This document shows, one piece after another, positions 2,556 through 17,782 of a DNA stretch of 64,000 nucleotides (the stretch's first letter is position 1; each line of letters opens with the position of its first letter). The translations under genes and the position numbers were made by a program. The stretch comes from a virus: positions 1 to 64,000 of the IMG/VR virus record IMGVR_UViG_3300027833_001604; one strand, written 5' to 3'. A model generated the notes under the pieces. It saw nothing but the letters and a program-made list of their open reading frames with translations. It was not told where the DNA came from and did no database searches.

Positions 2556-2573
2556 CTCTTTTGTTCGGTAGGC

Positions 2574-2582
2574 ATAAATACT
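2574..2582 (+). promoter_or_regulatory. T4-type late promoter box
   Basis: ATAAATACT lies about 27 bases before the start of the 2609 gene. The T4 late promoter is a single box, TATAAATA, read by the phage late sigma factor with the sliding clamp. The spacing leaves room for a short leader and a ribosome site. It would drive the block of putative virion-cargo genes. Confidence 0.6.
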
Positions 2583-2608
2583 ACTAATAAGAAATATGGA
2601 GTTATACA

Positions 2609-3490
2609 ATGCGATTACACAATTTATTTGAATCAGACACACCAGAATCATTAACTGAAGATTATCTTGATATTGAGATTACTGAAGACTTTGCTATTGA
2701 AAGCAGAGTATTGGAATTCACAGAAGATGGTGGAGCAATTATTGAGCTTGATGAACAAGCACAAGAATTAGTCGATTTAGACGAAGAAACCCTTAATGAA
2801 TTTATACCATTAGCAATTGGTGCCGCTGCATTAGGCATGACAGCCTATGATGCTTATAGAAATTACAAGCAATATAAAGCAGGCGAAATTACAAAGGGTG
2901 ATCTAGCAAAGCGTGTAGGCATGGATGCTGCTATTGGAATTACAACAGGCGGTATTGGTAAACTTGCAAGCAAGGCATACAAAGGTGCTAAAGCCGGTAT
3001 TAAATCATTTAAGACAAACAGAGCGGCAGCTAAAATTGATACACCAACTACTCCAGTTGCAAAAACTACTCCGCCACCAGTTGCTAAAACTACAAAACCA
3101 AAAGGTAAAGGCAAAGGTAAAATTGCAAGAAAATTAGATAACCTTGTTCCAAATAGTTATGGTAGTAGATCATCATATGATAACCCATTACAAAGAGCGG
3201 TAAAGAACTTCTCATTTGAAGATGTAAACGAAGCAGAATACCAAGGACGTAAAGTTAAACTAAACAAACCTATGCAAGGTGATGTTAAAAAGTCAAAAGT
3301 ATATGTAAAGAACCCAAAAGGCAACGTAGTTAAAGTAAACTTTGGTCACGGCGGAAGCAGTGCTAAAGGTAAAACTATGAGTATTAAAAAGAATAACCCA
3401 GCACGTAGAAAATCATTTCGTGCTAGACATAACTGTAGTAATCCAGGACCAAAGCATAAAGCACGTTATTGGTCATGTAAAGCGTGGTAA
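2609..3490 (+). CDS. putative packaged/virion protein with capsid-targeting-like N-terminus
   Basis: A 293-residue protein. Its start, MRLHNLFES, resembles the T4 internal-protein targeting sequence, with LFE as a possible prohead-protease site (the T4 gp21 protease cuts after I/L-x-E). An acidic region with further L/I-x-E sites follows (residues 12-65), then a hydrophobic Gly/Ala-rich stretch (about 66-85 and 105-125), a Thr/Pro/Lys linker and a basic C-terminus with KSFRARHNC and ARYWSCKAW. The motif YDNPLQR (about 190) recurs in the protein at 6094-7938. The hydrophobic part suggests membrane interaction, perhaps during DNA entry. Packaging is an inference; the gene is clear and follows a late promoter. 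Confidence 0.7.
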   Translation: MRLHNLFESDTPESLTEDYLDIEITEDFAIESRVLEFTEDGGAIIELDEQAQELVDLDEETLNEFIPLAIGAAALGMTAYDAYRNYKQYKAGEITKGDLAKRVGMDAAIGITTGGIGKLASKAYKGAKAGIKSFKTNRAAAKIDTPTTPVAKTTPPPVAKTTKPKGKGKGKIARKLDNLVPNSYGSRSSYDNPLQRAVKNFSFEDVNEAEYQGRKVKLNKPMQGDVKKSKVYVKNPKGNVVKVNFGHGGSSAKGKTMSIKKNNPARRKSFRARHNCSNPGPKHKARYWSCKAW

Positions 3491-3494
3491 TCCT

Positions 3495-3803
3495 ATGTTC
3501 ATTAGGGAGATTACCGAAAACAAAGCAATAGAAATGAAAATTAGCGATTTGACTATCAGTGATGCTGGTATGGCAATCGCACAATCAGTAGGTGGCGGAA
3601 GTAGAACAGATGCTCCGTTGGCAGTTACAAAACTTCCATCAGGTCATGTATATCTTGTAAATGGGTATCATAGATTGGTAGATGCTATGCAGGCTGGTAA
3701 AGATACTGTATCAGTAAAATATGTTCCATATGAAAAAGTAGAAATACTTTGGAAACAAGAACGTGAACAAGATATCAAATACGGTAAACAGTTTAATGAA
3801 TAA
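3495..3803 (+). CDS. ParB/sulfiredoxin-like domain protein
   Basis: A 102-residue protein. I chose the ATG at 3495 over an upstream start inside the previous gene because it yields MFIREITEN, which matches the N-terminal pattern of its neighbours. Residues about 15-80 follow the ParB N-terminal/sulfiredoxin pattern: a short strand-rich segment, PLAVTKL, then VNGYHRLVDAMQAG resembling the phosphate-binding GxHR loop. Members range from partition factors to kinases and nucleases, so the activity is open. Its stop overlaps the next start. Confidence 0.55.
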   Translation: MFIREITENKAIEMKISDLTISDAGMAIAQSVGGGSRTDAPLAVTKLPSGHVYLVNGYHRLVDAMQAGKDTVSVKYVPYEKVEILWKQEREQDIKYGKQFNE

Positions 3804-4467
3804 GCTATTTGCATTTGGATGTAGTATGACGTCAGGCGCTGCGTTAGATGACGTATGGGATTTTGAAAATAATGTCCCGATTAATAAGCCAAGTAAGTTT
3901 GCATGGCCGCAACTGTTAGCAGATCAAATGAATTTAGAATGTGTTAACTTAGCAGTAAGTGGTTCTAGTAATAAAGAAATAAGCCATACAATAATTAATA
4001 CACCTAACATTACGTCAAATGATGTAGTGATTGTGCAATGGACAAATATAAATAGATGGTGCGTAATACAAGACGATTTATCTGTTAGGCAAATTGTTCC
4101 TAAAGACACAGGTGTAACAAAATTATACTACAGTAATTTGCATACAACCAGTGATTCATTATTTGATATAGAAATGAGACGCTCGTGGGCAGATTTATAT
4201 TTTAAAAATTTAGGTGTTACTATATATCATATACGCAGCAGAAGTGAACTTACAGATATAATGACGTTAAAAGACAGAGTAAATAGAACAATTGCAGAAT
4301 CTTCTATATTACATTTACAATCTAACGTTGAAGACATACAACAATCTTTAAAAACATCTGCCAATGATGCAGGTATAATGTTTAAAAAAGGCCATCCATG
4401 TAAAAACGCACATCGATTACATTCTTCTCAACTATTTGAACAAATAAAAGATATGGAGGTAGCATGA
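3796..4467 (+). CDS. SGNH/GDSL-like hydrolase
   Basis: A 223-residue protein, with the start set at the ATG overlapping the previous stop. Block I is FAFGCSMTSG (about residues 5-14), with Ser as the putative nucleophile. LAVSGSSNKE (about 53-62) supplies Gly/Asn block residues, and a GHPCKNAHRLHS segment near the C-terminus could supply the late His. SGNH enzymes remove acyl or acetyl groups from sugars, lipids or peptidoglycan. Related openings (GCSxxxG) occur in the proteins at 16203, 17012, 23018 and the C-terminal half of 25038. No signal peptide is seen, so a cytoplasmic role is likely. The substrate is unknown. Confidence 0.65.
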   Translation: MNKLFAFGCSMTSGAALDDVWDFENNVPINKPSKFAWPQLLADQMNLECVNLAVSGSSNKEISHTIINTPNITSNDVVIVQWTNINRWCVIQDDLSVRQIVPKDTGVTKLYYSNLHTTSDSLFDIEMRRSWADLYFKNLGVTIYHIRSRSELTDIMTLKDRVNRTIAESSILHLQSNVEDIQQSLKTSANDAGIMFKKGHPCKNAHRLHSSQLFEQIKDMEVA

Positions 4468-4715
4468 ACGTAAGTAAAGAAAACATTTGGCATTTCACTT
4501 GTGATCACTGCATGGGTTTTTGGAGTGTAGCAACCATGGATAACTGGAAGCCTACAAATTTATATTGCACTCATTGTGGTAAACAAAATAAAAATGACAT
4601 GTGTTCATGCGGGCACAAAATTGTAAATTGTGATTGTGCGCCTGGATGCAAGTGTGAATGTAACAAGCGTTACTTAGATTCCGAAACAAGTTTTGATATG
4701 GAGAAATACACATGA
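4464..4715 (+). CDS. cysteine-rich zinc-binding protein
   Basis: An 83-residue protein with fifteen cysteines. CDHC (about 14-17) and CTHCG (about 35-39) form a likely zinc ribbon. A second cluster, CSCG, CDC, then CKCEC, follows at about 48-65. The second cluster has the same spacing style as the N-terminal cluster of the protein at 13835-14866 (CKCGPDCEHCDC). It starts in an ATGA overlap with the SGNH-like gene. It could be a small DNA- or RNA-binding or transcription accessory protein, but nothing fixes the role. Confidence 0.65.
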   Translation: MNVSKENIWHFTCDHCMGFWSVATMDNWKPTNLYCTHCGKQNKNDMCSCGHKIVNCDCAPGCKCECNKRYLDSETSFDMEKYT

Positions 4716-4939
4716 CACAAGACGATATTTATAGATTACAATATCTTGCAGGTATCATAGACAAGCAAGGTGATACTATAAAACCAACTGATGAATCTAA
4801 TATAAGTATTGTTGGAAGTGCCAAAGGTGAATACATGCGTAAGCATAATGTTAAGCCAGGCACTGATGAATGGTTTAAATTATGGTTCAGTAGACCAAAG
4901 TTAACTGGCGAAGACCCTACACCAAAGCAAGGCGGATGA
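4712..4939 (+). CDS. hypothetical protein, 75 aa
   Basis: A small soluble protein that starts in an ATGA overlap. The C-terminal half contains EYMRKHNVKPGTDEWFKLWF, followed by a short Pro/Lys tail. I recall comparable GTxEWFxLWF segments in unnamed proteins of marine T4-like phages, but cannot check this here. The start MTQDDIYRLQYLAGI looks like a short amphipathic helix. It sits in the putative cargo block but lacks the I/L-x-E start of its neighbours. Confidence 0.6.
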   Translation: MTQDDIYRLQYLAGIIDKQGDTIKPTDESNISIVGSAKGEYMRKHNVKPGTDEWFKLWFSRPKLTGEDPTPKQGG

Positions 4940-4940
4940 C

Positions 4941-6089
4941 ATGTTAATCAACGAAGTTATAACTCTAAAGGAAGAAGCATTAGATATTAACTCTATTGTA
5001 ACACCTGCAATCAAATACTTGGATAAAGTATTTAAAGATAATAACTTTGAAATCCGCATAGTTGGCGGAGCAGTGCGTGACATTGCACTAAACAAATCAC
5101 CCAAAGATATTGACTTCGCCTCAGATGCAACACCAGATGAAATGATTGCTATGTTTGATAAAGAAGCAATCAAATACATTCCTACAGGTTTACAGCACGG
5201 AACAATTACCGCAGTTGTAAACGGAGAAGATTTTGAAATCACAACACTAAGAGCAGACAAAGAAACAGATGGTAGACATGCCGAAGTTGAGTTTGTTAAG
5301 AGTTGGGAAGAGGATGCTAAACGCAGAGACTTAACATACAATGCTATGAGCATGGATATCGATGGCGAGCTATACGATTACCACGATGGCATGGACGATC
5401 TACAAAACAAAGTAAGTAAATTTGTAGGTGATCCAGAACAAAGAATTACAGAAGATTATTTACGTATACTACGTTACTTCCGTTTCCAAGGCAGGTTAGC
5501 AGAGCCTACTTGGGATAAAGATACATTACAAGCAATTAAAAAACATGCTAAAGGACTATCTGGCGTAAGCGCCGAGAGAATATGGGCAGAAATGGGCAAA
5601 GCACTTTCAGGACAAAATGTTGCAAGTTTAGTATCTACAATGCACAAAACAGGTGTAGCACAAGTAATAGGATTAAACGTAAGCAATTTAAGTGTAATAA
5701 AAGATGGTGGCAATCCAATTATAGCATTGGCACAATTAGACAACAGTATAGATATTGCAAAGCGTTGGAAAATGAAAAACACAGAAGCAGAGTTATTGGG
5801 CTTTTTAGTTAAGCACAAAAACGATCCACTTGATCAAAAGAAAGTGGAAGATATGATTGCTGATGGTGTTAAGCGTGAGCTTATTACAGCACTAGCATCA
5901 ATGCAAAACAAAAACGTAAACATAGATGCAAAAGTTCCAGACTTTCCAGTTAGTGGCGCAGACTTAATTGCAACAGGCATGAAGCCAGGACCAGACTTAG
6001 GTAAGAAACTTGCACAACTAAAGCAACAATGGAAAGCTGGTAATTTTAAAGCCAGTAAGGAAGATTTGCTAAATACTAGCAAGGAGTAA
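4941..6089 (+). CDS. cca: class II CCA-adding enzyme / poly(A) polymerase family nucleotidyltransferase
   Basis: A 382-residue protein. The nucleotidyltransferase motif is VGGAVRD (residues 41-47) followed by DID (56-58), the two metal-binding aspartates. RRDLTYNAMSMD, the DYHDGMDDL region and EDYLRILRYFRFQ match the class II tRNA nucleotidyltransferase/poly(A) polymerase head and neck. These enzymes repair or build tRNA 3' CCA ends or add A tails. The N-terminus MLINEVITLKEE carries INE and LKE, like the possible capsid-targeting starts around it, so the enzyme could be injected with the DNA. That part is inference; the enzyme family is firm. Confidence 0.92.
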   Translation: MLINEVITLKEEALDINSIVTPAIKYLDKVFKDNNFEIRIVGGAVRDIALNKSPKDIDFASDATPDEMIAMFDKEAIKYIPTGLQHGTITAVVNGEDFEITTLRADKETDGRHAEVEFVKSWEEDAKRRDLTYNAMSMDIDGELYDYHDGMDDLQNKVSKFVGDPEQRITEDYLRILRYFRFQGRLAEPTWDKDTLQAIKKHAKGLSGVSAERIWAEMGKALSGQNVASLVSTMHKTGVAQVIGLNVSNLSVIKDGGNPIIALAQLDNSIDIAKRWKMKNTEAELLGFLVKHKNDPLDQKKVEDMIADGVKRELITALASMQNKNVNIDAKVPDFPVSGADLIATGMKPGPDLGKKLAQLKQQWKAGNFKASKEDLLNTSKE

Positions 6090-6093
6090 CACA

Positions 6094-7938
6094 ATGAGAA
6101 TTACAGAAGTAGACAACCCAGTAACACAGGCTGATATCGATCAGTTAGAAGTGTTCGCTGACCGTTTGTTTGCTAAAGTAGGCATTGATGTAGAATTTAC
6201 TCGACACTTTTTAGACAGAGTTAATGACGAACGTAATATAAAACAAATTACAATGTCAGAACTTACACGACTATTTAAACAAGAATACAAACGTTGGGGC
6301 AAGCCAATTGCACAACTAGGCCCAGATGCTGAAGCAGTAATGAAAGATATGGCAACAAATATTAACTTGCCATTTGCACTACGTTGGGATCATAAGAATA
6401 ATGAATTAGATCTTATTGCTAAAACAGTAATGCGTAAAGCAAACTTCACAACATCCAATCAAGAGTTTGCAGTAGAAGATGGATACAAGTCTATGTTTAG
6501 ACCAAGTGCATATGAGTTAGCTGCAGAAAGATTACACAGCGTATTACAACGTAAAGAAAAAGAAAACGGCGGTGTATTTAGACATGCGTTAGGTTGGTAT
6601 GCATCAAAGATTGCTGGTGGGTTTAAAAACATTGATACCAGAGAACTAATATCATTCTATCAAAAGAATTTTGATACAGTATTAAGTGAAAGTGATTTAC
6701 CTTATATTACAGAAGAAGCCGCATTTAAACTTGATTACGATCAATTAAGAATAAAAATACCTGCTAACGATAATTCTAAACCAATCAAAGGCGAAGTTAT
6801 TGATCTAAATGCTCGTAGAGCAGCAGCCAAAGAAGCACTCGGCAAAATGTCTGATGCAGAGAAAAAAGCCGCAAATGAATTTATTAAAAAGAACAAAACT
6901 CTACTACAAAGACTATCAGCAGTTGGAGCCAGATCAGCAGCAAGACATGGAATAGCAACAGTATCAAGTGCGGTAACAGGACCTGCAGCACCAGTTGTAG
7001 CAACAGTATTAAACGTTACATTGCTAGGGTGGGATTTAGTTGACGCAGGCATAGAAGTATGGAAGTGGGCAAGATCAAGCAATAGTAAAGACATTGGACA
7101 AGGTAATGCAAATAGAGAGTTTGGCAATGATTTTGCTTTAGAAATTCCAACATATCCTACAACGTGGCCAATGGATAGAACAGGCACAGTATTAAAAAGA
7201 AAACAATCAGAATGGATGAAAGAATTTGGTAATACACATTTACGTAATGGCAAACTTAATCCATCTGCAGGTTATCAAGATGCAATAATGAAAATTGCAC
7301 AAGCAAATGTTGATGCAAAAAATAAAGCAAGTGATAACGAGCTTATTAAAAAAGAACCAGAAAAAGAATTAGAAAAGGCTCCTGTTATTAACTTTACAGA
7401 AATTCCACCGTTGGAAGTACCAGAATTCAAACCAGGCGAAATTGAAATACCTAGGCCTGCAAAAGACCGAGAAATAGATATTGAAATTCCAAAGTTCCCT
7501 AATGCACCAAGCAAAGATAAACCATTTAAACAACCAGAGGCTCCAACAGGGCCTAAGATAGATCCAAACTACACCCCAAAACAACCAAAGAATCCAAACT
7601 ACGAACCGGATAATCCAGAGGTGCCGAACAGCACTCCATCTGATCAGCCAGATAAAATTCCACAGCCGCTTAACGCACCTCATAAGGATATACCATTCAT
7701 TCCAAATACAAATGTAACTGATCCAGAAATAGCATTTAAGAATGATCCAGCAGTAGTAGTTGTTCCTCCACCAGCTGCAGGCGGAAACGGGAAGAATCCA
7801 CCAGCCAATAAGAACAATAACAAACAAAAGAAACGCAAACAGAAAAAAGATTGGGGTTCTGGAGGCAGTAGTGAATATGATGATCCATTACAACGTTGGC
7901 AAAAGAAATATGGAACATGGGAGCCCACTGACAGATGA
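6094..7938 (+). CDS. large multi-region putative virion/internal protein
   Basis: A 614-residue protein starting MRITEVDN (possible protease site ITE). Residues about 15-130 form a helical domain with FTRHFLDRVNDERN, a type of segment I associate with unnamed T4-like phage proteins. A hydrophobic stretch follows at about 290-330 (SSAVTGPAAPVVATVL and beyond). Residues about 430-570 are a Pro/Lys/Asp-rich, low-complexity linker. The end is basic, then SSEYDDPLQRWQKKYG, sharing YDxPLQR with the protein at 2609-3490. The layout suggests a structural or membrane-interacting protein rather than a classical enzyme. Long frames on the opposite strand arise from the proline-rich codons and are not genes. 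Confidence 0.7.
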   Translation: MRITEVDNPVTQADIDQLEVFADRLFAKVGIDVEFTRHFLDRVNDERNIKQITMSELTRLFKQEYKRWGKPIAQLGPDAEAVMKDMATNINLPFALRWDHKNNELDLIAKTVMRKANFTTSNQEFAVEDGYKSMFRPSAYELAAERLHSVLQRKEKENGGVFRHALGWYASKIAGGFKNIDTRELISFYQKNFDTVLSESDLPYITEEAAFKLDYDQLRIKIPANDNSKPIKGEVIDLNARRAAAKEALGKMSDAEKKAANEFIKKNKTLLQRLSAVGARSAARHGIATVSSAVTGPAAPVVATVLNVTLLGWDLVDAGIEVWKWARSSNSKDIGQGNANREFGNDFALEIPTYPTTWPMDRTGTVLKRKQSEWMKEFGNTHLRNGKLNPSAGYQDAIMKIAQANVDAKNKASDNELIKKEPEKELEKAPVINFTEIPPLEVPEFKPGEIEIPRPAKDREIDIEIPKFPNAPSKDKPFKQPEAPTGPKIDPNYTPKQPKNPNYEPDNPEVPNSTPSDQPDKIPQPLNAPHKDIPFIPNTNVTDPEIAFKNDPAVVVVPPPAAGGNGKNPPANKNNNKQKKRKQKKDWGSGGSSEYDDPLQRWQKKYGTWEPTDR

Positions 7939-8126
7939 AGATAAAAGACATACTAAAGTTACCTAGTATTGAAATTGGAGACGAGATACTAGTTGGCAAA
8001 TTTAAAAATCGTAAAGCTACAGTAACTGGCTTTGCAACAGACGAGAATAACCAGCCTGTTTTAAAAACAACTAAAGGCGATCAAAAACTATTCAAACCAA
8101 GAATAGTTAAATTAATGGACAAGTAA
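7935..8126 (+). CDS. small protein of the cargo block, 63 aa
   Basis: A basic 63-residue protein starting MKIKDILKL in an ATGA overlap with the large gene before it. Residues 16-60 look beta-rich (GDEILVGKFKNRKATVTGF) and could form a small barrel such as an SH3-like fold. The opening resembles its neighbours, but no clean I/L-x-E site is present in the first ten residues. No function can be assigned. Confidence 0.6.
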   Translation: MKIKDILKLPSIEIGDEILVGKFKNRKATVTGFATDENNQPVLKTTKGDQKLFKPRIVKLMDK

Positions 8127-8127
8127 G

Positions 8128-9252
8128 ATGAAAATAAATGAAATTAGCTGTTGGGACGGTTACAAAAAACAAGGCACTAAAAAAGGCACTGGTAAAAACA
8201 AAGGCAAGCGTGTAAACAATTGCGTTAAAGAAGCCATAACAAGACCAGGCGATGATACAGATCCATCATTGTGGCAAAGAATTAAAAATTTATACAAAAT
8301 GAATCCATTAGGTACTGATGATAACAAATCTAGACGAAATAAATTAGATGATATTGAATCACGCAGAGCTGACAAAATTCAAAAACGTAATAAACAAGAT
8401 ACAGTTATTAGACAAAAGAATAAAATTAAAGGCGCAGAAGTTGATCAATTATTACGTAATAGGCGCAGAGAAAAAGATGCAGTTGAAGACATGATCGCTG
8501 ATGCAATTGCACAAGACAAATTTGGAAAAGATCATCATGAACTTGATGATCTAGATCGTAAAAATGTTATTAGAACTTCTAGACATCTAGCAAACGATAT
8601 AGAAGCATACCCTGATTTACTTGATGATCCAGATTATCAAGATGATTTTAAGAAAATATATCCACAAGGGTTAGTCCCACAACTTGGAAAAAAATTAGAT
8701 GGAACAGATGCAGATCCAGATTATAGTTGGATGAATCCCTCAAAACCTAAACAAGAATTCAAGCATCCAGCATTTATGACAGTGTATCAATATAACCAAG
8801 ATGGATATGATGATAACCAACAAACAAGACAAATACAAGATAAAAATTATACTCGATCAAAAGTAGCAAAAGATAATAACATAAACTTTGAACCACGACA
8901 AGACATTTACAATCTTGCCACATCACAAGCAAATAAAGAAATAGATGCAAGAATTGCCACTGGAAAAGCTAATATTAAAAATATAGAAATAAAAAGAAAA
9001 CTTAATAAAGCAACAACTACTCCTGCTCCTACTGATAACAGTCAGAAGAAATTTGCAAGAGAAATACAAAACGAAGACGGTGTTATAGTTCCAGGTGTTA
9101 ACACTACAGTAGATGTTAAACCAGGCGAAACTGAACGCCAAGCTGCAAAGTTTGGTAATGGTAAAATTAAGCCACTAATGCCTAAACGAGGCAAGTCACA
9201 AACAATGAATACACTGTATAATCTAGGCTTAGCCGAAAAAGCTTCTAAGTAA
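8128..9252 (+). CDS. putative internal virion protein, highly charged
   Basis: A 374-residue, very hydrophilic, Lys/Asp/Asn-rich protein. It opens with MKINEISCWDGYKKQG: INE could be a prohead-protease site, and CWDGYKKxG followed by a Gly/Lys run and NNCVKE is a motif I associate with proteins of marine T4-like phages. The rest appears helical or disordered, with repeated DD and RR stretches. High charge and the absence of hydrophobic segments fit a protein packed with DNA in the head. The packaging idea is inferred, not shown. Confidence 0.65.
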   Translation: MKINEISCWDGYKKQGTKKGTGKNKGKRVNNCVKEAITRPGDDTDPSLWQRIKNLYKMNPLGTDDNKSRRNKLDDIESRRADKIQKRNKQDTVIRQKNKIKGAEVDQLLRNRRREKDAVEDMIADAIAQDKFGKDHHELDDLDRKNVIRTSRHLANDIEAYPDLLDDPDYQDDFKKIYPQGLVPQLGKKLDGTDADPDYSWMNPSKPKQEFKHPAFMTVYQYNQDGYDDNQQTRQIQDKNYTRSKVAKDNNINFEPRQDIYNLATSQANKEIDARIATGKANIKNIEIKRKLNKATTTPAPTDNSQKKFAREIQNEDGVIVPGVNTTVDVKPGETERQAAKFGNGKIKPLMPKRGKSQTMNTLYNLGLAEKASK

Positions 9253-9272
9253 CCACAAAGGATATAGACGTA

Positions 9273-10496
9273 GTGTCTACACCAAGCGAAAATCTAATTA
9301 AAAAATACAACAAATCATTCTGTGTTAAACCATTCACAGAAATATCTAATTCTGCGGTTGGACATAGACAACTTTGTTGTAGAAGCGAAACAATAATTAA
9401 AACAAGTGATGTTAGTAGTTCTTCTATAACCGAAGACTTTTTTAACCACTCAAAGATGAATGAGATAAGAAGAAAAATGTTAGCAGGTGAAACTGTTGAC
9501 GAATGTTGGATGTGTGCAGAATCTGAAGCTATGAGAGGAACATCACATAGAACATTTATAATGCAAGACTTCGATCAAGCTGAAGTTGATGAAATATTTA
9601 AAACTGGTAAAGTAGAATTAAGATCTTTAGACATACGTTTTGGGACTAAATGTAACCTAGCATGTGTAATGTGTAGTCCTGGTAGCAGTAGTTTAATTGC
9701 AAAAGAAGAAGCTGATGATGAATATCAAGTAGTAGACTTAAATGATTTTTCATTAGATGCTATTAAAAAACATTCAAAAGGTATTGTGTTATTCAAAACA
9801 ACAGGTGGCGAACCTATGTTGTTGCCAGCATATAAGAAAACACTTGAGTTTTTTGTAGAGAAAGACCTTGCAAAGAATATAGAGTTTACAACTATTACAA
9901 ACGGCACAGTTGATTACAGCAACTTAATGCCGTTAATGAATCAGTTTAAACATTTTAAAATTAGTCATAGTATAGATGCTGCAGACGAGTCATATAATTA
10001 TGTTAGATGGCCTGGAAAAATGTCACGCATAGAGCGTATACATAAATGTGTCATAGAAAATGCTAAACCATATAAAAACATAAGACTTGAGTTTGGTGCA
10101 ACTATACATGTATTAAATGTAAATCAAGTAGTAAAGATTGCCAAATACTTAGCTGGATTAGATCAAATTGTTGAAGATAATTATGCAGTAGACATGGTAT
10201 ACGATCCAGACTATATGCAACCAGGGTTAGTTCCTAAACAAGTAATAGATGATTTAGAAAATGAATACCACGAATGGAGTAAGGTAGCTCCAACAGGATA
10301 CAGAGGACGAAAAGAATTGTTTGACTTTATTAAGGTTTTGCGTTATAATTATGATAAAATAAATAGTAATAAGGAACACAAACAAGAATTACTTGATCAA
10401 CTAGAAGCTAAAACAATATTTTGGAAAGCTAAAAGAAACCTAGATGTTCGTGATTATATTCCATATTATGAGGTGATGCAAACTAAATGCGAATAG
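9273..10496 (+). CDS. radical SAM protein with N-terminal twitch/SPASM-like cysteines
   Basis: A 407-residue protein with a GTG start preceded by an AAAGGA ribosome site. The radical SAM cluster motif CNLACVMC (C127, C131, C134) binds the [4Fe-4S] that cleaves S-adenosylmethionine, and TTGGEP (about 175) is the SAM-binding GGE motif. An N-terminal domain carries C17, C35-C36 and CWMC (C78, C81), placed like an N-terminal twitch or SPASM-type auxiliary cluster. The same architecture recurs at 33084, 53630, 55003, 59940 and 61175. A GNAT acetyltransferase overlaps its end by 10 bases, so the two probably act together. The substrate is unknown. Confidence 0.9.
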   Translation: MSTPSENLIKKYNKSFCVKPFTEISNSAVGHRQLCCRSETIIKTSDVSSSSITEDFFNHSKMNEIRRKMLAGETVDECWMCAESEAMRGTSHRTFIMQDFDQAEVDEIFKTGKVELRSLDIRFGTKCNLACVMCSPGSSSLIAKEEADDEYQVVDLNDFSLDAIKKHSKGIVLFKTTGGEPMLLPAYKKTLEFFVEKDLAKNIEFTTITNGTVDYSNLMPLMNQFKHFKISHSIDAADESYNYVRWPGKMSRIERIHKCVIENAKPYKNIRLEFGATIHVLNVNQVVKIAKYLAGLDQIVEDNYAVDMVYDPDYMQPGLVPKQVIDDLENEYHEWSKVAPTGYRGRKELFDFIKVLRYNYDKINSNKEHKQELLDQLEAKTIFWKAKRNLDVRDYIPYYEVMQTKCE

Positions 10497-10900
10497 TATT
10501 AAAAAGATTAACTACAAAAGACTTATATAAATTAACATCTATATTAGATTATGATACTGCTATATTGGCAAATATTGATTGGCCATTTAATAGAAGTGCA
10601 GCAATGCAATTTATTAATGATTATAATACATGGGGAGTTTGGGTTAACCAAGACACATTAGTAGGAGCTGTTGAAGTGAAAAACGATTTAGAAACAGCAT
10701 ATTTTATTAAAAAGGGCTGGCGAAACACAGGCGTAGGCACACGTGCCATCGAACTATGTGTTAAAGAATTTGGCGACCAACAATTATGGTGTGTTATTAA
10801 TCCAGACAATAAAGCAAGTTTAAAAGTAGCACAAAAAGGCGGTTTACGAGTAAAATTTATTGACAATGATAGTAAAGACGTAATTACTGTTGTAAAATAG
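10487..10900 (+). CDS. GNAT family N-acetyltransferase
   Basis: A 137-residue protein. RNTGVGTRAIELCV (about residues 78-91) fits GNAT motif A (R/Q-x-x-G-x-G/A), which binds the pyrophosphate of acetyl-CoA. It is followed by a strand and the NPDNKASLKVAQKGG helix typical of motif B. The length is that of a single GNAT domain. It overlaps the end of the radical SAM gene by 10 bases. A second radical SAM gene at 33084 is also followed by a GNAT-like gene, which suggests the acetyl transfer acts on a radical SAM product or carrier. Confidence 0.8.
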   Translation: MRIVLKRLTTKDLYKLTSILDYDTAILANIDWPFNRSAAMQFINDYNTWGVWVNQDTLVGAVEVKNDLETAYFIKKGWRNTGVGTRAIELCVKEFGDQQLWCVINPDNKASLKVAQKGGLRVKFIDNDSKDVITVVK

Positions 10901-10908
10901 AGAATGAT

Positions 10909-11166
10909 ATGGCTAATAAGAAGATTACCAAAGAAGATCAAACAGCTACAGAGGGTCCAATGAACAATGTAGCTAGTGAAGATGCAATGGTTTATGCTAA
11001 TGCTAACCCAGATAAACCGCTTGATGTTAAACGAAAACGTATTGTTGTAGCTAAAAAACAACAAATAAAGAAAAGTAGTAAGAAAGCAAACCGAAGAATT
11101 AATAACAGTTTGCTGAAAAATATAGATGAATTGCAAAAAGATAAGCAAAAGAAATCAAATAGATAA
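10909..11166 (+). CDS. lysine-rich small protein, 85 aa
   Basis: A very basic hydrophilic protein with runs such as KKQQIKKSSKKANRR in the second half. It could bind nucleic acid or be disordered. It follows the GNAT gene by eight bases. It lacks the I/L-x-E start of the surrounding cargo-like genes. No family is recognised. Confidence 0.55.
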   Translation: MANKKITKEDQTATEGPMNNVASEDAMVYANANPDKPLDVKRKRIVVAKKQQIKKSSKKANRRINNSLLKNIDELQKDKQKKSNR

Positions 11167-11171
11167 ATACT
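11163..11171 (+). promoter_or_regulatory. T4-type late promoter box abutting a start codon
   Basis: ATAAATACT is part of the 15-mer ATAAATACTAGTATG, whose last three bases are the start codon of the 11175 gene. The identical 15-mer occurs at 21647. If used as a late promoter, transcription would begin at or just after the start codon, so it may serve downstream genes or produce a nearly leaderless mRNA. Confidence 0.45.
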
Positions 11172-11174
11172 AGT

Positions 11175-11369
11175 ATGAAAATATATGACATCATAACAGA
11201 AGATGCTGAAGCAGGTTCTACAATGGCAGGTAATATTGCCAGTGTTTCTTTTCCATTATTTGGAAAAAAGAAGATGATCAGGCGTGCTGTTGATCCAAAA
11301 GGATATTTAGGTGACGGTAAGATTAAAAAACAATCTACTGGATACAATACGGAGGTTAAGTTAAAATGA
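11175..11369 (+). CDS. small putative packaged protein, 64 aa
   Basis: Starts MKIYDIITEDAEAGS with ITE as the possible prohead-protease site. A Gly/Ser/Ala segment (TMAGNIASVSFPLFGKKK) and a basic C-terminus follow. I recall similar AGAT/AG-rich segments in short proteins of marine T4-like phages. The gene ends in an ATGA overlap with the next one. A structural or DNA-associated role in the head is inferred from the N-terminus and the gene block. Confidence 0.6.
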   Translation: MKIYDIITEDAEAGSTMAGNIASVSFPLFGKKKMIRRAVDPKGYLGDGKIKKQSTGYNTEVKLK

Positions 11370-11665
11370 AGATTAACGAGATCAACGAATCAATATACCA
11401 GATGAATCCTGAAGAACCAATGAATCCTGAAGTCTTAATACAAGGTTATGGTAGATTAAATTTAAAGCAATTAGAAGATAAAGTAAGCAGAATGTTCGAA
11501 GAGCTTGCGGTTAGAGCCAAACAAGGCGATTGGGAAGGTGTGCAACACAACCTAAACAAAGGCCTAGTGCAGGAATTTATTAAAACCATCAATGTAGCAT
11601 ATGATGAGTTAGAACAAAAACGAAGACGCGGCGGTAAGAACAGTCGTGGCATCAATCAGAGGTAA
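11366..11665 (+). CDS. small putative packaged protein, 99 aa
   Basis: A 99-residue protein opening MKINEINES, which carries two INE sites. The rest is mostly helical (about residues 30-85) and ends in an Arg/Lys/Gly tail (KRRRGGKNSRG) that could contact DNA. It is coupled to the preceding gene by ATGA. No known family is recognised. Its similarity to its neighbours lies only in the first eight or so residues. Confidence 0.65.
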   Translation: MKINEINESIYQMNPEEPMNPEVLIQGYGRLNLKQLEDKVSRMFEELAVRAKQGDWEGVQHNLNKGLVQEFIKTINVAYDELEQKRRRGGKNSRGINQR

Positions 11666-11670
11666 CGACT

Positions 11671-12795
11671 ATGAGCAATAAAATTGACAACACATTTAGC
11701 AAAGCAGCAATCGAATTAGCTAAATTAGAAAAAGCATTTGCTGAGAATAGCAAATTAGAAAAAGCAGTTATGGAATCAAACGGAGATGTTTCAGTTATAG
11801 CTGAAGTTAGATCTCACATAGCACAAGCAATTAAATCATTAACACCACAAACTATTACAGAAGGTGTATTAGATGATGATGACGATGATGGGTTTATGGC
11901 CCGCAGTCAACTATACTTCTTAGCCAGAGATGCAATTAAGTTGCACAGCGTTATAGATGATAGAGATGACTTGGAGCCATGGGTTCAAAGTAAAATTGCT
12001 CAAGCTAGTAAAGACATGGATTCAGTTCGTCGTTACACTGAATACAATGCCATGAAAGCTCAAGTAGAACCAGAGATGCAGCCAGAAATGCAACCAGCGC
12101 CAGAAGTAGAATCATTAGAAGAAGATCCAGTAGATCGTAAAATGCAAGTAACAAATGCTGATAAAGAGGGAAACACTCCAGCATGGCAACGTTATAAAGC
12201 AGGTGATCCTAGATATGAATACAAAGCACCAGTAAAAGAGTTTGCCGGAGCAGATGGTCCAGGTAAAGCAAGTATGCCACAGGGCATTGCACTAGCAGGT
12301 GATAGCATTTGGTTAAACAGAGACGGAATGCAGTATGCAGATGACGTTGTAACAATTACAGATTACAAAGTTGAAGAAACTGACGGTATGATTGAAGTAT
12401 GGGTAGAACATAATGCTCCTTGGGAAATTTATACAGACTCAGGTTTTGCAAAAGGTATCAGCAGAATACTAGGTATTGATGTTGACTGGAGTGAACAAGG
12501 TATGCAAGCACAAGGTGTAGCACATTTAGAAGGCGACACTGACCTAGATGAAGCTATTCGTCCAGTAAGAAGTGCAGCTTCTAAACTAAACCAAATTGGA
12601 CAAGGCGTTCGTAATAAAACTAATGACGAAACACCAATGAAAGTTGGCGAACAGAAAAAGAAAAAGAAATACAAAGAAGCAGTTGCAGAAGAAACTAAGT
12701 TTGATGATAAGCCAGAGCACAGTGAATTAAAAACAGTTGCACAGGACATGTTTAAGAATGCATTAGCAAACGCTAAGAAAAAAGCGAGGAAATAA
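11671..12795 (+). CDS. hypothetical protein of the cargo block, 374 aa
   Basis: A large acidic protein of unknown function. Residues about 8-40 form a helix rich in LAKLEKAF and KLEKAV repeats. A DDDDDD tract lies near 71. Pro/Glu/Met repeats (PEMQPEMQPAPE) are at about 131-142, and a more ordered Trp-containing domain covers about 205-290. The C-terminus has a KKKKK run. The start MSNKIDN does not match the MKIxE pattern, although L-x-K/E motifs abound. It is likely part of the virion cluster by position only. Confidence 0.6.
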   Translation: MSNKIDNTFSKAAIELAKLEKAFAENSKLEKAVMESNGDVSVIAEVRSHIAQAIKSLTPQTITEGVLDDDDDDGFMARSQLYFLARDAIKLHSVIDDRDDLEPWVQSKIAQASKDMDSVRRYTEYNAMKAQVEPEMQPEMQPAPEVESLEEDPVDRKMQVTNADKEGNTPAWQRYKAGDPRYEYKAPVKEFAGADGPGKASMPQGIALAGDSIWLNRDGMQYADDVVTITDYKVEETDGMIEVWVEHNAPWEIYTDSGFAKGISRILGIDVDWSEQGMQAQGVAHLEGDTDLDEAIRPVRSAASKLNQIGQGVRNKTNDETPMKVGEQKKKKKYKEAVAEETKFDDKPEHSELKTVAQDMFKNALANAKKKARK

Positions 12796-12797
12796 TT

Positions 12798-13835
12798 ATG
12801 AAAGCTGATCAATTAAACGAGAAATTCGACAAAGCAGATTGGGATGAAAATGAATCGCATAACCTACATACTGAAAATGCAGTAGAGCTTGCTCATGCAT
12901 TTGGAACTCGAGACGAAGTAGAAGCTATGGAAAGAATAGCTGATCAGCATATGCGTAGAGGACACATTCTACCACACGAAATTGAAGAACGTAGTGCATT
13001 AATGAAGAAGTATTATAACATGTTAGAGAATGAAACAAATCCAACTGTTAGATCTAAAATGGAAGGCTACAAAGTTATGCCTCCAATGGATAGCAAGTAT
13101 GTAGCACGTAAAGGACTTGAAGGTCCTTTTACTACATTAAGCGGTAAGGTTGTTTATTACGATCCTAAAGAAGGAAAGTATTACGATCCAGACACAGACA
13201 TTTATCTTTCATACGATGAATTCCAACAGTATGATAACGATTACAGTGGCATAGGTGATGAAGAAGCAGATGATTTTGTTAAAGATATTGAACCAAAAGA
13301 AACTGTAAAAGGCCCAAGAGGTCATTTAAGTTCTATTGTAAATGCAGGCAAAGACATAGAAGATGAATCGTTTGAAGTTAACCCAAATGCAGGACACAGA
13401 GACCAAATGGCACATCCAGAAAATCAAATGGGCACAGGCCCAGGAATTAAAACTAAGCCAAAGTTACGTCCAGCACAACTTGGTAAGAAATTTCCAAAAA
13501 CTAAGCCAAAGTTACGCCCAGATAATTTAGGCGAAGCAGGCGGATATTATACACAACCAGTATATGATATGATTGAACAGCATGGTTATGAAAAAGTAAT
13601 GCACGAACTATTAACAAGTTTAGATGCAGATGTAATTCAAGACTTTTTACAACGTGCAGAGTTTGATGAATCAGTAAGTGAGACACTAAGTCCAGAAGAG
13701 AAAAAACTAGTTGCTAAAATGTATAACAAAGATGGCACACTAACTGATCTAGGCAAAAAAGTTATGAGAGAAGGCAAATACGTTAGCGATGCACAACGCA
13801 AAGCGGTTCATGCCTCAAAAGCGGAGAAAAAATAA
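12798..13835 (+). CDS. hypothetical protein with LNE start, 345 aa
   Basis: Opens MKADQLNEKFDKADWDENE with LNE as a possible prohead-protease site. Residues about 95-145 contain VYYDPKEGKYYDPDTDIYLSY-like tyrosine-rich text, a likely beta hairpin. A near repeat, TKPKLRPAQLGKKFP then TKPKLRPDNLGEAG, spans about 215-245. The C-terminal third is helical. No enzyme motif is visible. It lies one base before the next gene's start. Confidence 0.6.
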   Translation: MKADQLNEKFDKADWDENESHNLHTENAVELAHAFGTRDEVEAMERIADQHMRRGHILPHEIEERSALMKKYYNMLENETNPTVRSKMEGYKVMPPMDSKYVARKGLEGPFTTLSGKVVYYDPKEGKYYDPDTDIYLSYDEFQQYDNDYSGIGDEEADDFVKDIEPKETVKGPRGHLSSIVNAGKDIEDESFEVNPNAGHRDQMAHPENQMGTGPGIKTKPKLRPAQLGKKFPKTKPKLRPDNLGEAGGYYTQPVYDMIEQHGYEKVMHELLTSLDADVIQDFLQRAEFDESVSETLSPEEKKLVAKMYNKDGTLTDLGKKVMREGKYVSDAQRKAVHASKAEKK

Positions 13836-14866
13836 TGGGTATATTAAGCGATATAGTAAATGAAGATAAGGTAGAGATGTGCCCAGAAGCATGTTGTGGA
13901 AAGCCTATAACAGAATGCAAATGTGGACCAGATTGCGAACACTGTGATTGTCATTCAAAAAATGCAATAAACGAAGGCACACAAGGTTGTGCTGATTGCG
14001 AATGGATTAAAGACGAAACAGACGGCGACATCACTACATGTGATGATTGTGCTGCAGAAAAACGTGAAAAAACTAATGAAGCAGAAAAGCGTTGGAAACA
14101 AACTAGTATGTCTCCACAAGAAGCAATAGCAAAATACGGCAAACCAAACGTAAAAGTTAAAAAAGGTGCATTGCGTAATGGCGATGACATGGTAGAAGTA
14201 TTTGTTGAAGGTTATAAGATCCGTGACAAATCACGTGGATATGGCGTAGCAGATGCGACATATAAAACACGTAAAGCAGCCCAAGATGCGGCAATAATGA
14301 AAGCGGCTTCAAACGGCGGCGATTGGGAAGTATTTGTTGAATCATATTCACCAGGTGATGTAGCTGAACTAGTAGGTGATATACATTATTCTAACAATCA
14401 TTATGATAGAGATGAGAGAAAAAGCGAAATGCAGGCCGATGCAGCCAAGCTAATGATGGCAGCAAAAAGCACAGGTGACGAAGATATTATAGCCAGTGCA
14501 GAATCTGTAGAACATTTGTGTCATCACTATGATTATGATGAAGCCAAAGATATGTTAAACAATAAACTACAAGAACTTAATCAGTTAGTAGGTGGCAACG
14601 AATTAGAAGTAGAAGAATCATATTCACCAGGTGATGAAATGGAAGATGGCGTAGTAAGTAATTGCTGTGGTGCTCCATTAATGGACTACAATGATGGACA
14701 TGGTAGATGTAGTGATTGTAAAGAAATGGCAGCCGGTGAAACTGATGAAGAATACTACGAATCAAAAGTTATGCAAGCCAGAGAACAAATAGCTCAAGAA
14801 GAATCACCTGTAATCGAAGCGGATGCCGAACTACAAAGGATTCAAGACTTAGTTAAGTTTAGATAA
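13835..14866 (+). CDS. zinc-binding protein with two cysteine clusters
   Basis: A 343-residue acidic protein. The N-terminus MGILSDIVNED is followed by a dense cluster, CPEACCGK, CKCGPDCEHCDC (about residues 17-44), then CADC and CDDC pairs (about 53-73). Near the C-terminus, VSNCCGAPL and CSDCKE (about 275-297) form a classical zinc ribbon of a kind common in phage proteins. The middle carries two similar short segments ending in EVFVEG and EVFVES with SYSPGD after each. It probably binds several zinc ions; whether it is packaged or regulatory is open. Confidence 0.65.
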   Translation: MGILSDIVNEDKVEMCPEACCGKPITECKCGPDCEHCDCHSKNAINEGTQGCADCEWIKDETDGDITTCDDCAAEKREKTNEAEKRWKQTSMSPQEAIAKYGKPNVKVKKGALRNGDDMVEVFVEGYKIRDKSRGYGVADATYKTRKAAQDAAIMKAASNGGDWEVFVESYSPGDVAELVGDIHYSNNHYDRDERKSEMQADAAKLMMAAKSTGDEDIIASAESVEHLCHHYDYDEAKDMLNNKLQELNQLVGGNELEVEESYSPGDEMEDGVVSNCCGAPLMDYNDGHGRCSDCKEMAAGETDEEYYESKVMQAREQIAQEESPVIEADAELQRIQDLVKFR

Positions 14867-14877
14867 GGAATAATAAA

Positions 14878-15918
14878 ATGAGATTACACCATTTATTTGA
14901 AAAGTCAATTGATCCTAAGCAGGCTAAAAAGATGCAACGTATCTATGCCAAGATGCAAGAAAATCCAGCAGTTATTGACGAGCTATGGAAGACAGTATCA
15001 ACAATGACTGCCGCAGAGGGTGGTGAACTTAAAAATAGAATACTTGTAGCAGTAGATCCAAAAAATACAGGCAATGAACAAGACCAAACATATGCAGAAG
15101 GTTTTATCGAAGGCTTAGTTAATGCTATTGATAAAACAGAAGGCACCACTGAAGAACGCATTGCGTTTGCTAAAGGGCTAGGAAAAGTAAGTCATATCGA
15201 TTCAACTGCATTACTACAACCATTAGCTGGTTGGGGTGACTGGTTAACTGGTACTGATTTCAGTAAAAGACTATTTGAAACATTATTTCTTGACCCAGCG
15301 TTCTTACAAGCAAACAAAGGACCAGGTGAATTTGCACTTGCAATACTAAGTCCTGATATTTCACTTACTGGTGCTAAGGGCGATATTCAAGTCAAGGGTA
15401 AACCAATTGAAGTAAAGTCAGGAAAAACAAGTTCTGGTGGTAGATTAACACCAACTGATGGAACACTTGGACAGTTATACAAGAACAAAGAATTTTGGGC
15501 AGCTATTGCAGGTGAAGATGAAGCAAAAGCAGGACAGTTAGCAGGTGTTAATAAAGTTAATGCAAACAACTATGCACAATTCTTAGATCAATACAACTTA
15601 GGTCCTGAACAATCAACACAAATATTAAAAGCAATCTTTAAACACCCAGATGCAGCACCGATGGCACAGTCAATTGGTAGATCTGGAACAAATGTAACAG
15701 CAGCAGACTTAATTAAGTTGTCAGTAAAGAACTATGGTGCATCACAAGGTGACGATCATTTCCTAATCCTACAAAAAGACATTAGAGCAAGTTTATATTT
15801 TGATGTAGACAACTTAGATCCAGTGCTTAATAGACTATCCTTCTCATTACCATTAATTGATAGTGATGCAAGAAGCCAAGGTAAAGCACAAATTGGTATC
15901 TTAAAGAAATCAAGATAA
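14878..15918 (+). CDS. putative PD-(D/E)XK-like nuclease with capsid-targeting-like start
   Basis: A 346-residue protein opening MRLHHLFEKS, nearly the same as MRLHNLFES at 2609, with LFE as a possible protease site. Residues 148-181 contain a conserved-looking E151, then GD169 and IEVK (E178, K180), followed by SGKTSSGGR. This order matches the E...D...E-x-K core of PD-(D/E)XK endonucleases. The remainder is helical. If packaged, it would enter the host with the genome and could cut host DNA or act on ends. The nuclease call is by motif only, without structural confirmation. Confidence 0.55.
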   Translation: MRLHHLFEKSIDPKQAKKMQRIYAKMQENPAVIDELWKTVSTMTAAEGGELKNRILVAVDPKNTGNEQDQTYAEGFIEGLVNAIDKTEGTTEERIAFAKGLGKVSHIDSTALLQPLAGWGDWLTGTDFSKRLFETLFLDPAFLQANKGPGEFALAILSPDISLTGAKGDIQVKGKPIEVKSGKTSSGGRLTPTDGTLGQLYKNKEFWAAIAGEDEAKAGQLAGVNKVNANNYAQFLDQYNLGPEQSTQILKAIFKHPDAAPMAQSIGRSGTNVTAADLIKLSVKNYGASQGDDHFLILQKDIRASLYFDVDNLDPVLNRLSFSLPLIDSDARSQGKAQIGILKKSR

Positions 15919-16202: not shown

Positions 16203-16994
16203 ATGGATAAAGTATTAATAATAGGTTGTAGCTTTTCAGCAGGCTGGTATGAACTTCAGATTAAATATCCTCACATTTCAAAGGTTACGGAAGAAAAAGT
16301 ATTTCATGACTATGGATGGTATGACGAATTGCCTGACCATAATCAATATACAGTGTATGCACACCCAGGTGGTGGATATTTAAACTATGCTTACCTATTA
16401 TATCAACTTTATAACTCTGGAGAACTCCAGAAATATTCTAAATGTATAATACAAGAAACGTGGGAACCTCGTATTTCTTTGTATCAGACCGACAATTATT
16501 CGCTCGACAGAAAAGAAGAAAAAATACATTTTTATCTTAAACACTGCAAGTTAGAGTTTATAAAAAGTATGGCTCTTATGGAACAAGGTAACATAATTAA
16601 CACATTACAAACAACATTTGACGTAGAGCTAACCGTGCCGTGGAAAAATTACTTGACAGATATTGGAAATTCTATATACTTAGAGGCAGCAGTAGATAGT
16701 AGTGCATTAGCAATTGATCGTCTTTTACAAGATGCAAATATTCCTACTTATAGGTTTTGTGTCAACCTATCCAGTGTTGATAGATTCGACGATAGCATTA
16801 GTAACAATAAATGGCCACATATAAAACATATGAAACAGATGGATATGTTGAATGAAATGAGTGAAATATACAAACATCATTTATGCTGGCCAAAAGGAAC
16901 TCATTTCCCAGATGAAAGATCAGGCCATTTAACGAAGCATGGAACAATGTTACTTGGAAAACTAGTAGCAACTAAATTAACAGACTTTTTGTAA
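16203..16994 (+). CDS. SGNH-like hydrolase, first of a tandem pair
   Basis: A 263-residue protein beginning MDKVLIIGCSFSAGW, block I of an SGNH-type fold with Ser in GCSFS. A glycine-rich HPGGGYLNYA (about 59-68) and a C-terminal GHLTKHGTMLLG (about 241-252) correspond to later SGNH blocks, the latter carrying the candidate catalytic His. The next gene is a clear paralogue with nearly identical DNA across block I. No secretion signal is present. The chemistry is probably ester or acetyl hydrolysis; the substrate is unknown. Confidence 0.65.
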   Translation: MDKVLIIGCSFSAGWYELQIKYPHISKVTEEKVFHDYGWYDELPDHNQYTVYAHPGGGYLNYAYLLYQLYNSGELQKYSKCIIQETWEPRISLYQTDNYSLDRKEEKIHFYLKHCKLEFIKSMALMEQGNIINTLQTTFDVELTVPWKNYLTDIGNSIYLEAAVDSSALAIDRLLQDANIPTYRFCVNLSSVDRFDDSISNNKWPHIKHMKQMDMLNEMSEIYKHHLCWPKGTHFPDERSGHLTKHGTMLLGKLVATKLTDFL

Positions 16995-17011
16995 AGAGAT
17001 AGTGATATACA

Positions 17012-17782
17012 TTGAAAGATAAAGTATTAATAATAGGTTGTAGCTTTTCAGCAGGCTGGTGGACACTCGCAGAGAATCAAGGTAAAAAGAATACAAGTGC
17101 ATGCGAAGATTTACATGACGATTATGGATGGTATGATGAGCTTCCTAGCGAGGATGAATACACAATCTATTCACATCCAGCTGGTGGATATTTAAATTAT
17201 GCTCATCTAATTAATAAACTATCAGATTCTGGAGAGCTAAGTCAATATTCTAAATGTATAATACAAGAAACATGGGAACCACGTGTTTGTTTATTTGTGC
17301 ATGATGATTATATGCCTGTTTTATCCAGAGACAATATACATTTATATCAACAACGTGGTTTAAAATCATTTGTAAAGAATATGATATTACCAGGTAAAAG
17401 TGGATTAGTAGATGATATATCAAAAAGATGGTTTACTAGGTTTAGCGATGCTCAAAAAAACTACTTGACAGATATTGGAAACTCTGTATACTTAGATACA
17501 GCAATAGAAAGCAGTGCATTAGCAATTGATCGCATATTACAAAATGCAAATATTCCTGCTTATAGATTTAATGTTAGTGAAAAGCAAAATCATTTAGAAC
17601 TATCACATATAAGACACATAACTGAACTAGATATACACAAAGAAATGTTTACAATTTTTGATATACATAGAACTGGATCAGGATTGCCAGAACCACTTGG
17701 CACGTTAGGTGGACATCTAACAAAACAAGGAACAAAACTAATGGGCAAAGCAGTAGCCAATAAATTAAAGGATTTTTTGTGA
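17012..17782 (+). CDS. SGNH-like hydrolase, second of a tandem pair
   Basis: A 256-residue paralogue of the preceding protein with a TTG start. Shared features are VLIIGCSFSAGWW, DDYGWYDELP, HPAGGYLNYAHL, CIIQETWEPR, YLTDIGNSVYL, SSALAIDR and the C-terminal GGHLTKQGTKLMGKAV. The DNA over the first 36 or so codon-matched bases of block I is identical to that of the first copy while flanking parts have diverged, as expected after duplication with local conversion or strong constraint. It ends in a GTGA overlap with the next gene. Confidence 0.65.
   Translation: MKDKVLIIGCSFSAGWWTLAENQGKKNTSACEDLHDDYGWYDELPSEDEYTIYSHPAGGYLNYAHLINKLSDSGELSQYSKCIIQETWEPRVCLFVHDDYMPVLSRDNIHLYQQRGLKSFVKNMILPGKSGLVDDISKRWFTRFSDAQKNYLTDIGNSVYLDTAIESSALAIDRILQNANIPAYRFNVSEKQNHLELSHIRHITELDIHKEMFTIFDIHRTGSGLPEPLGTLGGHLTKQGTKLMGKAVANKLKDFL

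Follow-up and report, generated by a model that had tools for sequence, protein, structure and literature searches.

Why should a run of adjacent phage genes with very different products open, again and again, with the same kind of short segment ending in [ILV]-x-E? The question is raised by the gene block at 2609-15918 of the virus record IMGVR_UViG_3300027833_001604, a 109,013-base fragment of which bases 1-64000 form the window and whose nearest named phages by the window DNA polymerase are Sinorhizobium phage Phosso (49%) and Agrobacterium phage Atu_ph07 (48.5%), both very large phages. In T4, the gp21 protease cleaves after L/I-x-E and incorporation of IPIII requires only its first ten residues, as described in PMC9026906; IPIII and IPII start MKTYQEFIAE, and IPI starts MKTFKEF with I-T-E at residue 19. 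A preliminary description of this DNA took ten starts in the block for labels of the same sort and the block itself for a large set of packaged, injected proteins. We conclude that the block is probably the internal-protein (cargo) locus of a T4-like phage, with cargo that is capsid-targeted, protease-trimmed and in part of polyprotein type. Capsid targeting is well supported by the sequences; cutting and injection we infer from them.

Is the N-terminal label real? All ten labelled starts proved to be open reading frames, and [ILV]-x-E with E at residues 4-10 is found in 10 of the 18 block genes against 13 of the 133 others (Fisher p 2e-5), the gene set of the whole record comprising 151 script-called genes of at least 50 aa after 11 doubtful calls had been dropped and 3 genes added by hand. 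When residues 2-40 are shuffled, a mean of 2.2 genes have the motif and none of 5000 shuffles reaches 10. As had been described, the motif is missing from the radical SAM (9273), GNAT (10487) and Lys-rich (10909) genes; it is also missing from five further block genes (3826, 4464, 4712, 7935 and 11671). A ribosome-binding-site-like sequence precedes 8 of the 10 labelled starts, with none at 3495 and with 11175 outside the calls of that script. The end of the label is ambiguous at the MxIxE starts, 3495 having also I-T-E at 8, 4941 also L-K-E at 11 and 11366 I-N-E at 8; in 6094 and 8128 E5 is the sole site in the label, and 13835 fits the pattern only through V-N-E. Because [ILV]-x-E is short and common, so that single instances prove nothing, we place the weight on position, register and conservation.

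These were followed in 84 loci with a related DNA polymerase, some of them overlapping pieces of one contig, in which clustering of the 773 plus-strand genes that have a ribosome-binding-site-like sequence gave 217 clusters. Upstream of the polymerase 29 of 76 clusters have the motif with E at 4-10, and downstream 17 of 141 do (p 1.2e-5). By position of the E, the upstream clusters form two peaks, E5 (18.4%) and E8 (15.8%), with 0-6.6% elsewhere, and downstream no position exceeds 5.7%; the E8 class accounts for 11/76 upstream and 0/141 downstream clusters, and the E5 class for 13/76 and 2/141. A basic residue 2 (K or R) is found in 24 of the 29 tagged clusters against 42 of the 188 others (p 4e-10); the 42 comprise 9 from the 47 untagged clusters upstream and 33 from the 141 downstream. 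All these p values are approximate because the clusters share lineage. An incidental origin of the motif, from N-terminal composition or from the shared descent of a few genes, appears very improbable: [ILV]xE is indeed common, its density inside tagged proteins is ordinary, and clusters from related lineages make the tests not fully independent, but the peaks at 5 and 8 are missing downstream, the shuffles never reproduce the count, and the counting was by cluster rather than by sequence.

The constant label over a varying payload that distinguishes T4-type capsid-targeting sequence (CTS) proteins is demonstrated on the family of 14878. At the spot ahead of the conserved gene 15920, a single, highly diverged family supplies 23 proteins (the window's 14878 and 22 more); every one of them starts M-[RK]-L-x-x-L-F-E, and in the 203 of 253 pairs with payload identity below 35% the label averages 80% identity, residues 9-16 average 15% and the payload 18%. 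In an alignment of 20 of the 23 rows (A1) the invariant positions are M1, L3, L6, F7 and E8, the next invariant column being G148. The same spot holds 30 distinct proteins before the anchor gene, 8 of which belong to other families and were excluded; label-like starts are seen by eye in five of these (L051, L054, L055, L056 and L057) and none in L065, L081 and L102. In the loci L017, L020 and L022 the DNA polymerase is 93-94% identical to that of the window and the protein at the 14878 spot only 25-29%, with MRLHHLFE retained. Conversely, the 14878 payload stands under other labels in L013 (MRAYEFLTE, 62% identity) and L011 (MRFKDFRLVE, 69%), both outside the 30 for want of an anchor match. 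The family of 11366 likewise carries MKINEINE or MRIEYITE.

Could the machinery that such labels require be found? The search for a gp21-like protease that the preliminary description proposed came up empty in the record itself and succeeded in a relative: among 15 records searched, a gp21-family (S77) protease and gp23 (PF03420, PF07068) were found in one, the 165-kb G005, whose DNA polymerase is 59% identical to that of the window. G005 also carries a counterpart of the labelled block, with MKIFEITE, MRFSEIIAE and others as labels. Among 73 gp23 sequences from relatives of the G005 protease locus, 3 were left unscored by the pattern used and all 70 scored have L-x-E at the presumed T4-like cut (P2: S 58, A 11, I 1). 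A mosaic with the same modules in L201, L202, L204 and L205 starts MKTFTEYLKE, close to the T4 IPIII label. It is quite improbable that the motif serves some other sorting step, for instance to a phage-made compartment or membrane site, with the E not a protease site. For such a step speak the MxIxE starts of 6094 and 8128, which lack a second site, and the fact that label function is read from sequence; against it speak the match to T4 labels and to the gp23 L-x-E sites, the drop in conservation immediately past the E, and the same motif at internal borders (see below).

Upstream of 2609 lies CATAAATACTA, which resembles the T4 late consensus. The record contains five copies of the motif ATAAATACT, and each is followed at 12-35 nt by a called gene start on its own strand, 2609 and 11175 among them. 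Over-representation of this motif was considered and dropped (5 against 3.3 expected, not above chance), and because its number is at chance only its placement counts as support. In the head and tail region of G005 it lies 12, 25, 37 and 94 nt before called genes and is absent before gp23; ATAAATA is found within 160 nt in 3 of 73 gp23 genes.

The preliminary description called the remainders of the labelled proteins unrelated, which is right in so far as only some match a family; many, however, are modules that recur, shuffled, in relatives, and homology searches show domains moving between labelled proteins of related loci. The four modules DVKPGET, CCGKPI, CWDGY and GYYTQP, chosen by eye, start directly or a few residues after [ILV]xE in 9/10, 6/6 assessable, 5/5 and 4/5 contexts, respectively; the one DVKPGET failure is the window's own context, EIQNE, and among held-out loci one more GYYTQP context, AKTNE followed by AGG, fails [ILV] at the third position before the presumed cut (P3), giving 4/6 overall. 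A test on borders that were not picked compared alignment borders between mosaics with random places in the same 663 proteins. In the interval from +1 to +4, [ILV]xE is found at 94 of 570 starts against 38.3 expected; with similar contexts removed, the figures are 46/308 against 21.1 at starts and 51/302 against 20.3 at ends. In the same test [ILV]xD, xK, xQ and xN gave no significant rise at module borders, [FYM]xE was also raised (41 against 19.8 at starts, 36 against 16.0 at ends), and a control set of 442 head-locus proteins gave 8/113 starts against 7.9 expected. Hydrophobic-x-E sites coincide with module borders above chance, and this mosaic, polyprotein-like build adds to the preliminary description.

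The build is exemplified by an 1184-residue protein of G005 (Table 1), in which a nucleotidase (NT5C), a ParB-like domain and a CCA-adding enzyme, several disparate domains in one polypeptide, follow a label. Its [ILV]xE sites end at residues 10, 69, 186, 203, 371, 461, 535, 560, 617, 780, 838, 995 and 1126. Sites 203, 371, 617 and 995 lie outside the named domains and within about 30 residues of an edge, and the peptidase-like stretch has 69 and 186 on either side; 535 and 560 are inside the wider match on the ParB side, and 780 and 838 fall inside the CCA enzyme. A CCA enzyme, a nucleotidase and a tail resembling that of the G005 protein are joined in the product of L094:5066-6910.

Is cargo of this kind found in virions? 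The virion proteome of cyanophage S-SCSM1, determined by mass spectrometry, is reported to include NMNAT (PMC9602691), and cytidyltransferases are reported in cyanophage virions (PMC10665884); the passages on these enzymes in the two papers make no mention of a label. The virion-noted S-SCSM1 block (89-93, 95 and 97) lies before primase and nrd genes. NMNAT (91) starts MKSFLQFLKE, and the motif is also present as L-S-E at 11 in 89 and as V-A-E at 6 in 90. The virion protein 89 (SSCSM1_89) has an ADKxxNT module in common with 11671, which bears no N-terminal label (64% over 25 residues, E 2.4e-4). By analogy, packaging of such cargo is plausible, with the caution that such cyanophage proteins might not have been separated from virions during purification (PMC10665884).

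Several observations weigh against the reading advanced here. The record, a fragment, gave no gp21 or gp23 match (PF03420, PF07068). Some relatives of 11366 miss the motif (MRVDQLES and MRADQLES at P3; MRESQLAKEE), and labels of five residues (MKINE) are shorter than the T4 propeptides given in PMC9026906 (7 for Alt, 10-19 for the internal proteins). In the border test, the intervals fixed beforehand gave only z 1.3-2.0 at starts (4.0-5.7 at ends), and the +1 to +4 interval was chosen after the profile had placed the beginning of alignments near P3. E without [ILV] at P3 is itself somewhat raised (157 against 129 at starts, 150 against 109 at ends), and E without any hydrophobic P3 slightly so (68 against 61.3 and 76 against 62.1); ends in the head-locus control gave 11/105 against 5.2, with general E enrichment (38 against 18.4). 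The border signal is present in untagged proteins too, and inside tagged proteins the sites number 593 against 597 expected. In S-SCSM1 the motif had to be rejected as a stand-alone predictor of virion presence: among the 221 of 282 coding sequences used (61, mostly short, were left out), it is found in 7 of 48 virion-noted proteins and 17 of 173 others (p 0.24; 0.14 at a limit of 12 residues and 0.083 at 14), the record placing the virion note on 48 coding sequences and the paper stating 45 (PMC9602691). Within the block 2 of 7 virion proteins have it (p 0.16), or 3 of 7 at limits of 12 (p 0.046) or 14 (p 0.084), with 92, 93, 95 and 97 lacking it within 14 residues. In that phage virion presence neither requires the motif nor follows from it.

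Of the proposed set of packaged, injected proteins, the targeting part is supported by enrichment, the E5/E8 register, the basic residue 2, the conservation and swapping of labels, the late-promoter-like motif before 2609, and the gp21-family protease and gp23 L-x-E in a relative. 'Packaged' and 'injected' are things that we still infer, the record having no gp21 or gp23 match and the motif in S-SCSM1 being not clearly predictive.

The nature of the payloads bears on what the labelled proteins might do. In the 14878 family E151, D169, E178 and K180 are invariant (D169, E178 and K180 in A1) and give a D-x(n)-E-x-K motif like that of the PD-(D/E)XK active site. Matches of the domain model (pLDDT 79) are best to restriction and homing endonucleases and weak, all with Z below 5: HinP1I (Z 4.1, root-mean-square deviation (rmsd) 5.4, 154 aligned), PvuII (Z 3.0, rmsd 5.1, 113 aligned) and I-Ssp6803I (Z 2.9). 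Foldseek against the PDB gave nothing at E <0.001 for the domain model or for the whole-protein model, for which PvuII (Z 2.8) appeared among unrelated rows; against viral predictions, the domain model matched two uncharacterised phage proteins (E 1.2e-9 and 3.1e-7). A PDB sequence search with A1 gave two matches at E 0.04-0.05, to chains without evident link; the protein had no match in the 'phages' sequence set, and eight proteins had none in PADLOC at E 0.01. The 14878 protein is a predicted PD-(D/E)XK-like nuclease.

Might the labels instead send proteins to the prohead core for assembly, the proteins being core or scaffold helpers and not injected effectors? IPIII affects T4 head form, gp21 also cleaves gp22 and gp67 of the T4 core (PMC9026906), and 6094 and 2609 have proline- or acid-rich parts. 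As scaffold, however, enzyme-like payloads would be odd, here the CCA-adding enzyme and the PD-(D/E)XK-like protein and in relatives nucleotidase, cytidyltransferase and peptidoglycan-binding domains, and the payloads differ between close relatives; we consider such a role unlikely.

Table 1. The block in the window, with a mosaic protein of G005 for comparison (lengths in aa; residue ranges refer to the protein)
Position	Strand	Length	Label	Other features
2573..2583	+			CATAAATACTA, T4-late-promoter-like, ~35 nt before ATG 2609
2609..3490	+	293	MRLHNLFE	C-terminal module phrog_7595
3495..3803	+	102	MFIREITE (E5 or E8)	weak ParB-like match after label
4941..6089	+		MLINEVITLKE (E5 or E11)	CCA-adding enzyme / tRNA nucleotidyltransferase, PF01743 (E 1.1e-34), phrog_2244
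6094..7938	+	614	MRITE	phrog_23027 module at 11-123
7935..8126	+	63	possibly decayed, MKIKDILK	
8128..9252	+	374	MKINE	CWDGY module; C-terminal DVKPGET module
9273..10496	+		none	radical SAM protein (PF04055)
10487..10900	+		none	GNAT acetyltransferase (PF13302)
11175..11369	+	64	MKIYDIITE	stretch AGNIASV resembling gp23 arm of relatives
11366..11665	+	99	MKINEINE	
11671..12795	+	374	none at N-terminus	many internal [ILV]xE sites; ADKxxNT module
12798..13835	+	345	MKADQLNE	OCRE-like stretch below Pfam cut-off; AGGYYTQP module
13835..14866	+	343	MGILSDIVNE	Cys-rich CPEACCGKPITEC module
14878..15918	+	346	MRLHHLFE	predicted PD-(D/E)XK-like nuclease
G005 L102:13904-17455		1184	MKFKDIKVKE	DVKPGET module after label
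G005 protein, 97-148				HELIH metallopeptidase-like stretch, below Pfam cut-off
G005 protein, 210-354				NT5C nucleotidase
G005 protein, 571-608				ParB-like; wider methyltransferase-family match 517-610
G005 protein, 645-908				CCA-adding enzyme, sub-threshold match to 991; then basic tail

Apart from the single-enzyme 4941, the mosaics of the window's block carry mostly modules of unknown kind. The L095 homologue of 2609 starts MRVHNLFTE; homology between 2609 and the protein at G005 L101:1916 was considered and not borne out. From residue 9, just past the label, 3495 is 97% identical to residues 469 onward of a 618-aa protein of L081, which holds the module internally under a different label, MKITDFINE. 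The 6094 module is common to 15 records, among them Methylophilales phage Melnitz, Sinorhizobium phage phiM12 and Flavobacterium phage immuto, and in some relatives a longer tagged protein has the counterpart of 11366 as its C-terminal module. At 7935 the label may have decayed: in close relatives the start is MKIKD[IV], in more distant ones MKINEIVE or MKISEIVE. An alternative start at residue 17 is possible in 11175, but that Met is missing in L046 and L047. Past its label the 11175 protein reads AGSTMAGNIASV, close to the stretch AGATSAGNVATL that follows the presumed cut in gp23 of relatives; judged by this resemblance, it could be a mimic of the shell protein.

Some features lie to the side of the argument. 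A single tRNA gene (Arg, TCT) was found in the pieces of the record (L003:438-514, record ~104,438-104,514), although a CCA-adding enzyme is encoded. The small protein at 4712-4939 belongs to a family (12 loci) starting ..LAGI, which resembles the R-L-A-G-I/L end of gp22-like scaffolds (75/79); LAG[IL] at a terminus as a second targeting signal is unsupported (1/76 against 1/141 clusters). The fragment encodes six radical SAM proteins (PF04055; in the window 9273-10496, 33084-34460, 43225-44235, 53630-54856 and 59940-62383), one of them below and one at the Pfam cut-off and three with SPASM. At 16203-17782 two adjacent, similar proteins start MDKVLIIGCSFSAGW and MKDKVLIIGCSFSAGW, the first of them without a Pfam match.

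The cargo-locus reading appears to accommodate these findings through a short chain of events. The N-terminal label of each tagged protein, 5-11 residues long, would bind the prohead core, and a gp21-type prohead protease would then cleave after hydrophobic-x-E and take the label off; the same protease may, with less assurance, also cut between the modules of the mosaics, so that one precursor would yield several separate domains in the head. The products, the CCA-adding enzyme and the predicted nuclease included, would be delivered into the host together with the DNA, and tRNA, nucleic acid and defences would presumably be their targets as soon as infection begins; payloads would be swapped between phages with labels of one kind and cut sites kept. 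A more general scheme can be put forward only tentatively, as one that may well fail: a cargo grammar of an exchangeable capsid label plus prohead-protease border sites, by which a mosaic precursor would be packaged once and cut in the head into many separate domains for injection (nucleotidase, ParB-like, CCA-adding enzyme, nuclease and others), which would amount to a polyprotein system driven by capsid maturation. If these proposals are true, a simple label will help to tell virion-borne proteins of uncultured phages from sequence, and enzymes for tRNA repair, nucleotide cleavage and nuclease action are predicted to arrive ahead of all phage gene expression; a protease-cut cargo polyprotein would also unite T4 internal proteins with polyvalent proteins and explain how a mosaic precursor arrives in the cell as small domains.

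How does such a locus compare with known systems? We have seen no description of this labelled mosaic cargo in the open-access literature searched. The closest parallels are IPI-III and Alt of T4: in these, too, a short N-terminal label ends in [LI]-x-E, residue 2 is basic and the label is kept over unrelated payloads, and the gp21 family is here present in a relative; T-even internal proteins are described as highly diverse, with the CTS alone conserved (PMC3012670). The present block differs in its greater number of genes, the registers MRxxxLxE and MKIxEI, the enzyme cargo and the multi-module mosaic precursors with border sites. In SPN3US, too, a prohead protease trims head proteins, including ejection proteins, after x-x-E, but there the motif is A-x-E, the propeptides are mostly long (two are of 20-24 residues) and most head proteins are uncut (PMC10052503). 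The S-SCSM1 NMNAT offers another likeness, an enzyme within a block of virion proteins with a label-like start. Polyvalent proteins, finally, are multi-domain, predicted to be injected and equipped with ParB-like, Pol-beta nucleotidyltransferase and peptidase domains, as in the 1184-residue protein of G005, and zincin-like metallopeptidases have been proposed for their processing (PMC5512222); what sets the present proteins apart from those of Iyer et al. (2017) is the N-terminal T4-type label together with border sites of the prohead-protease type. The block can be viewed as a variation on the T4 internal-protein scheme that overlaps the polyvalent proteins.

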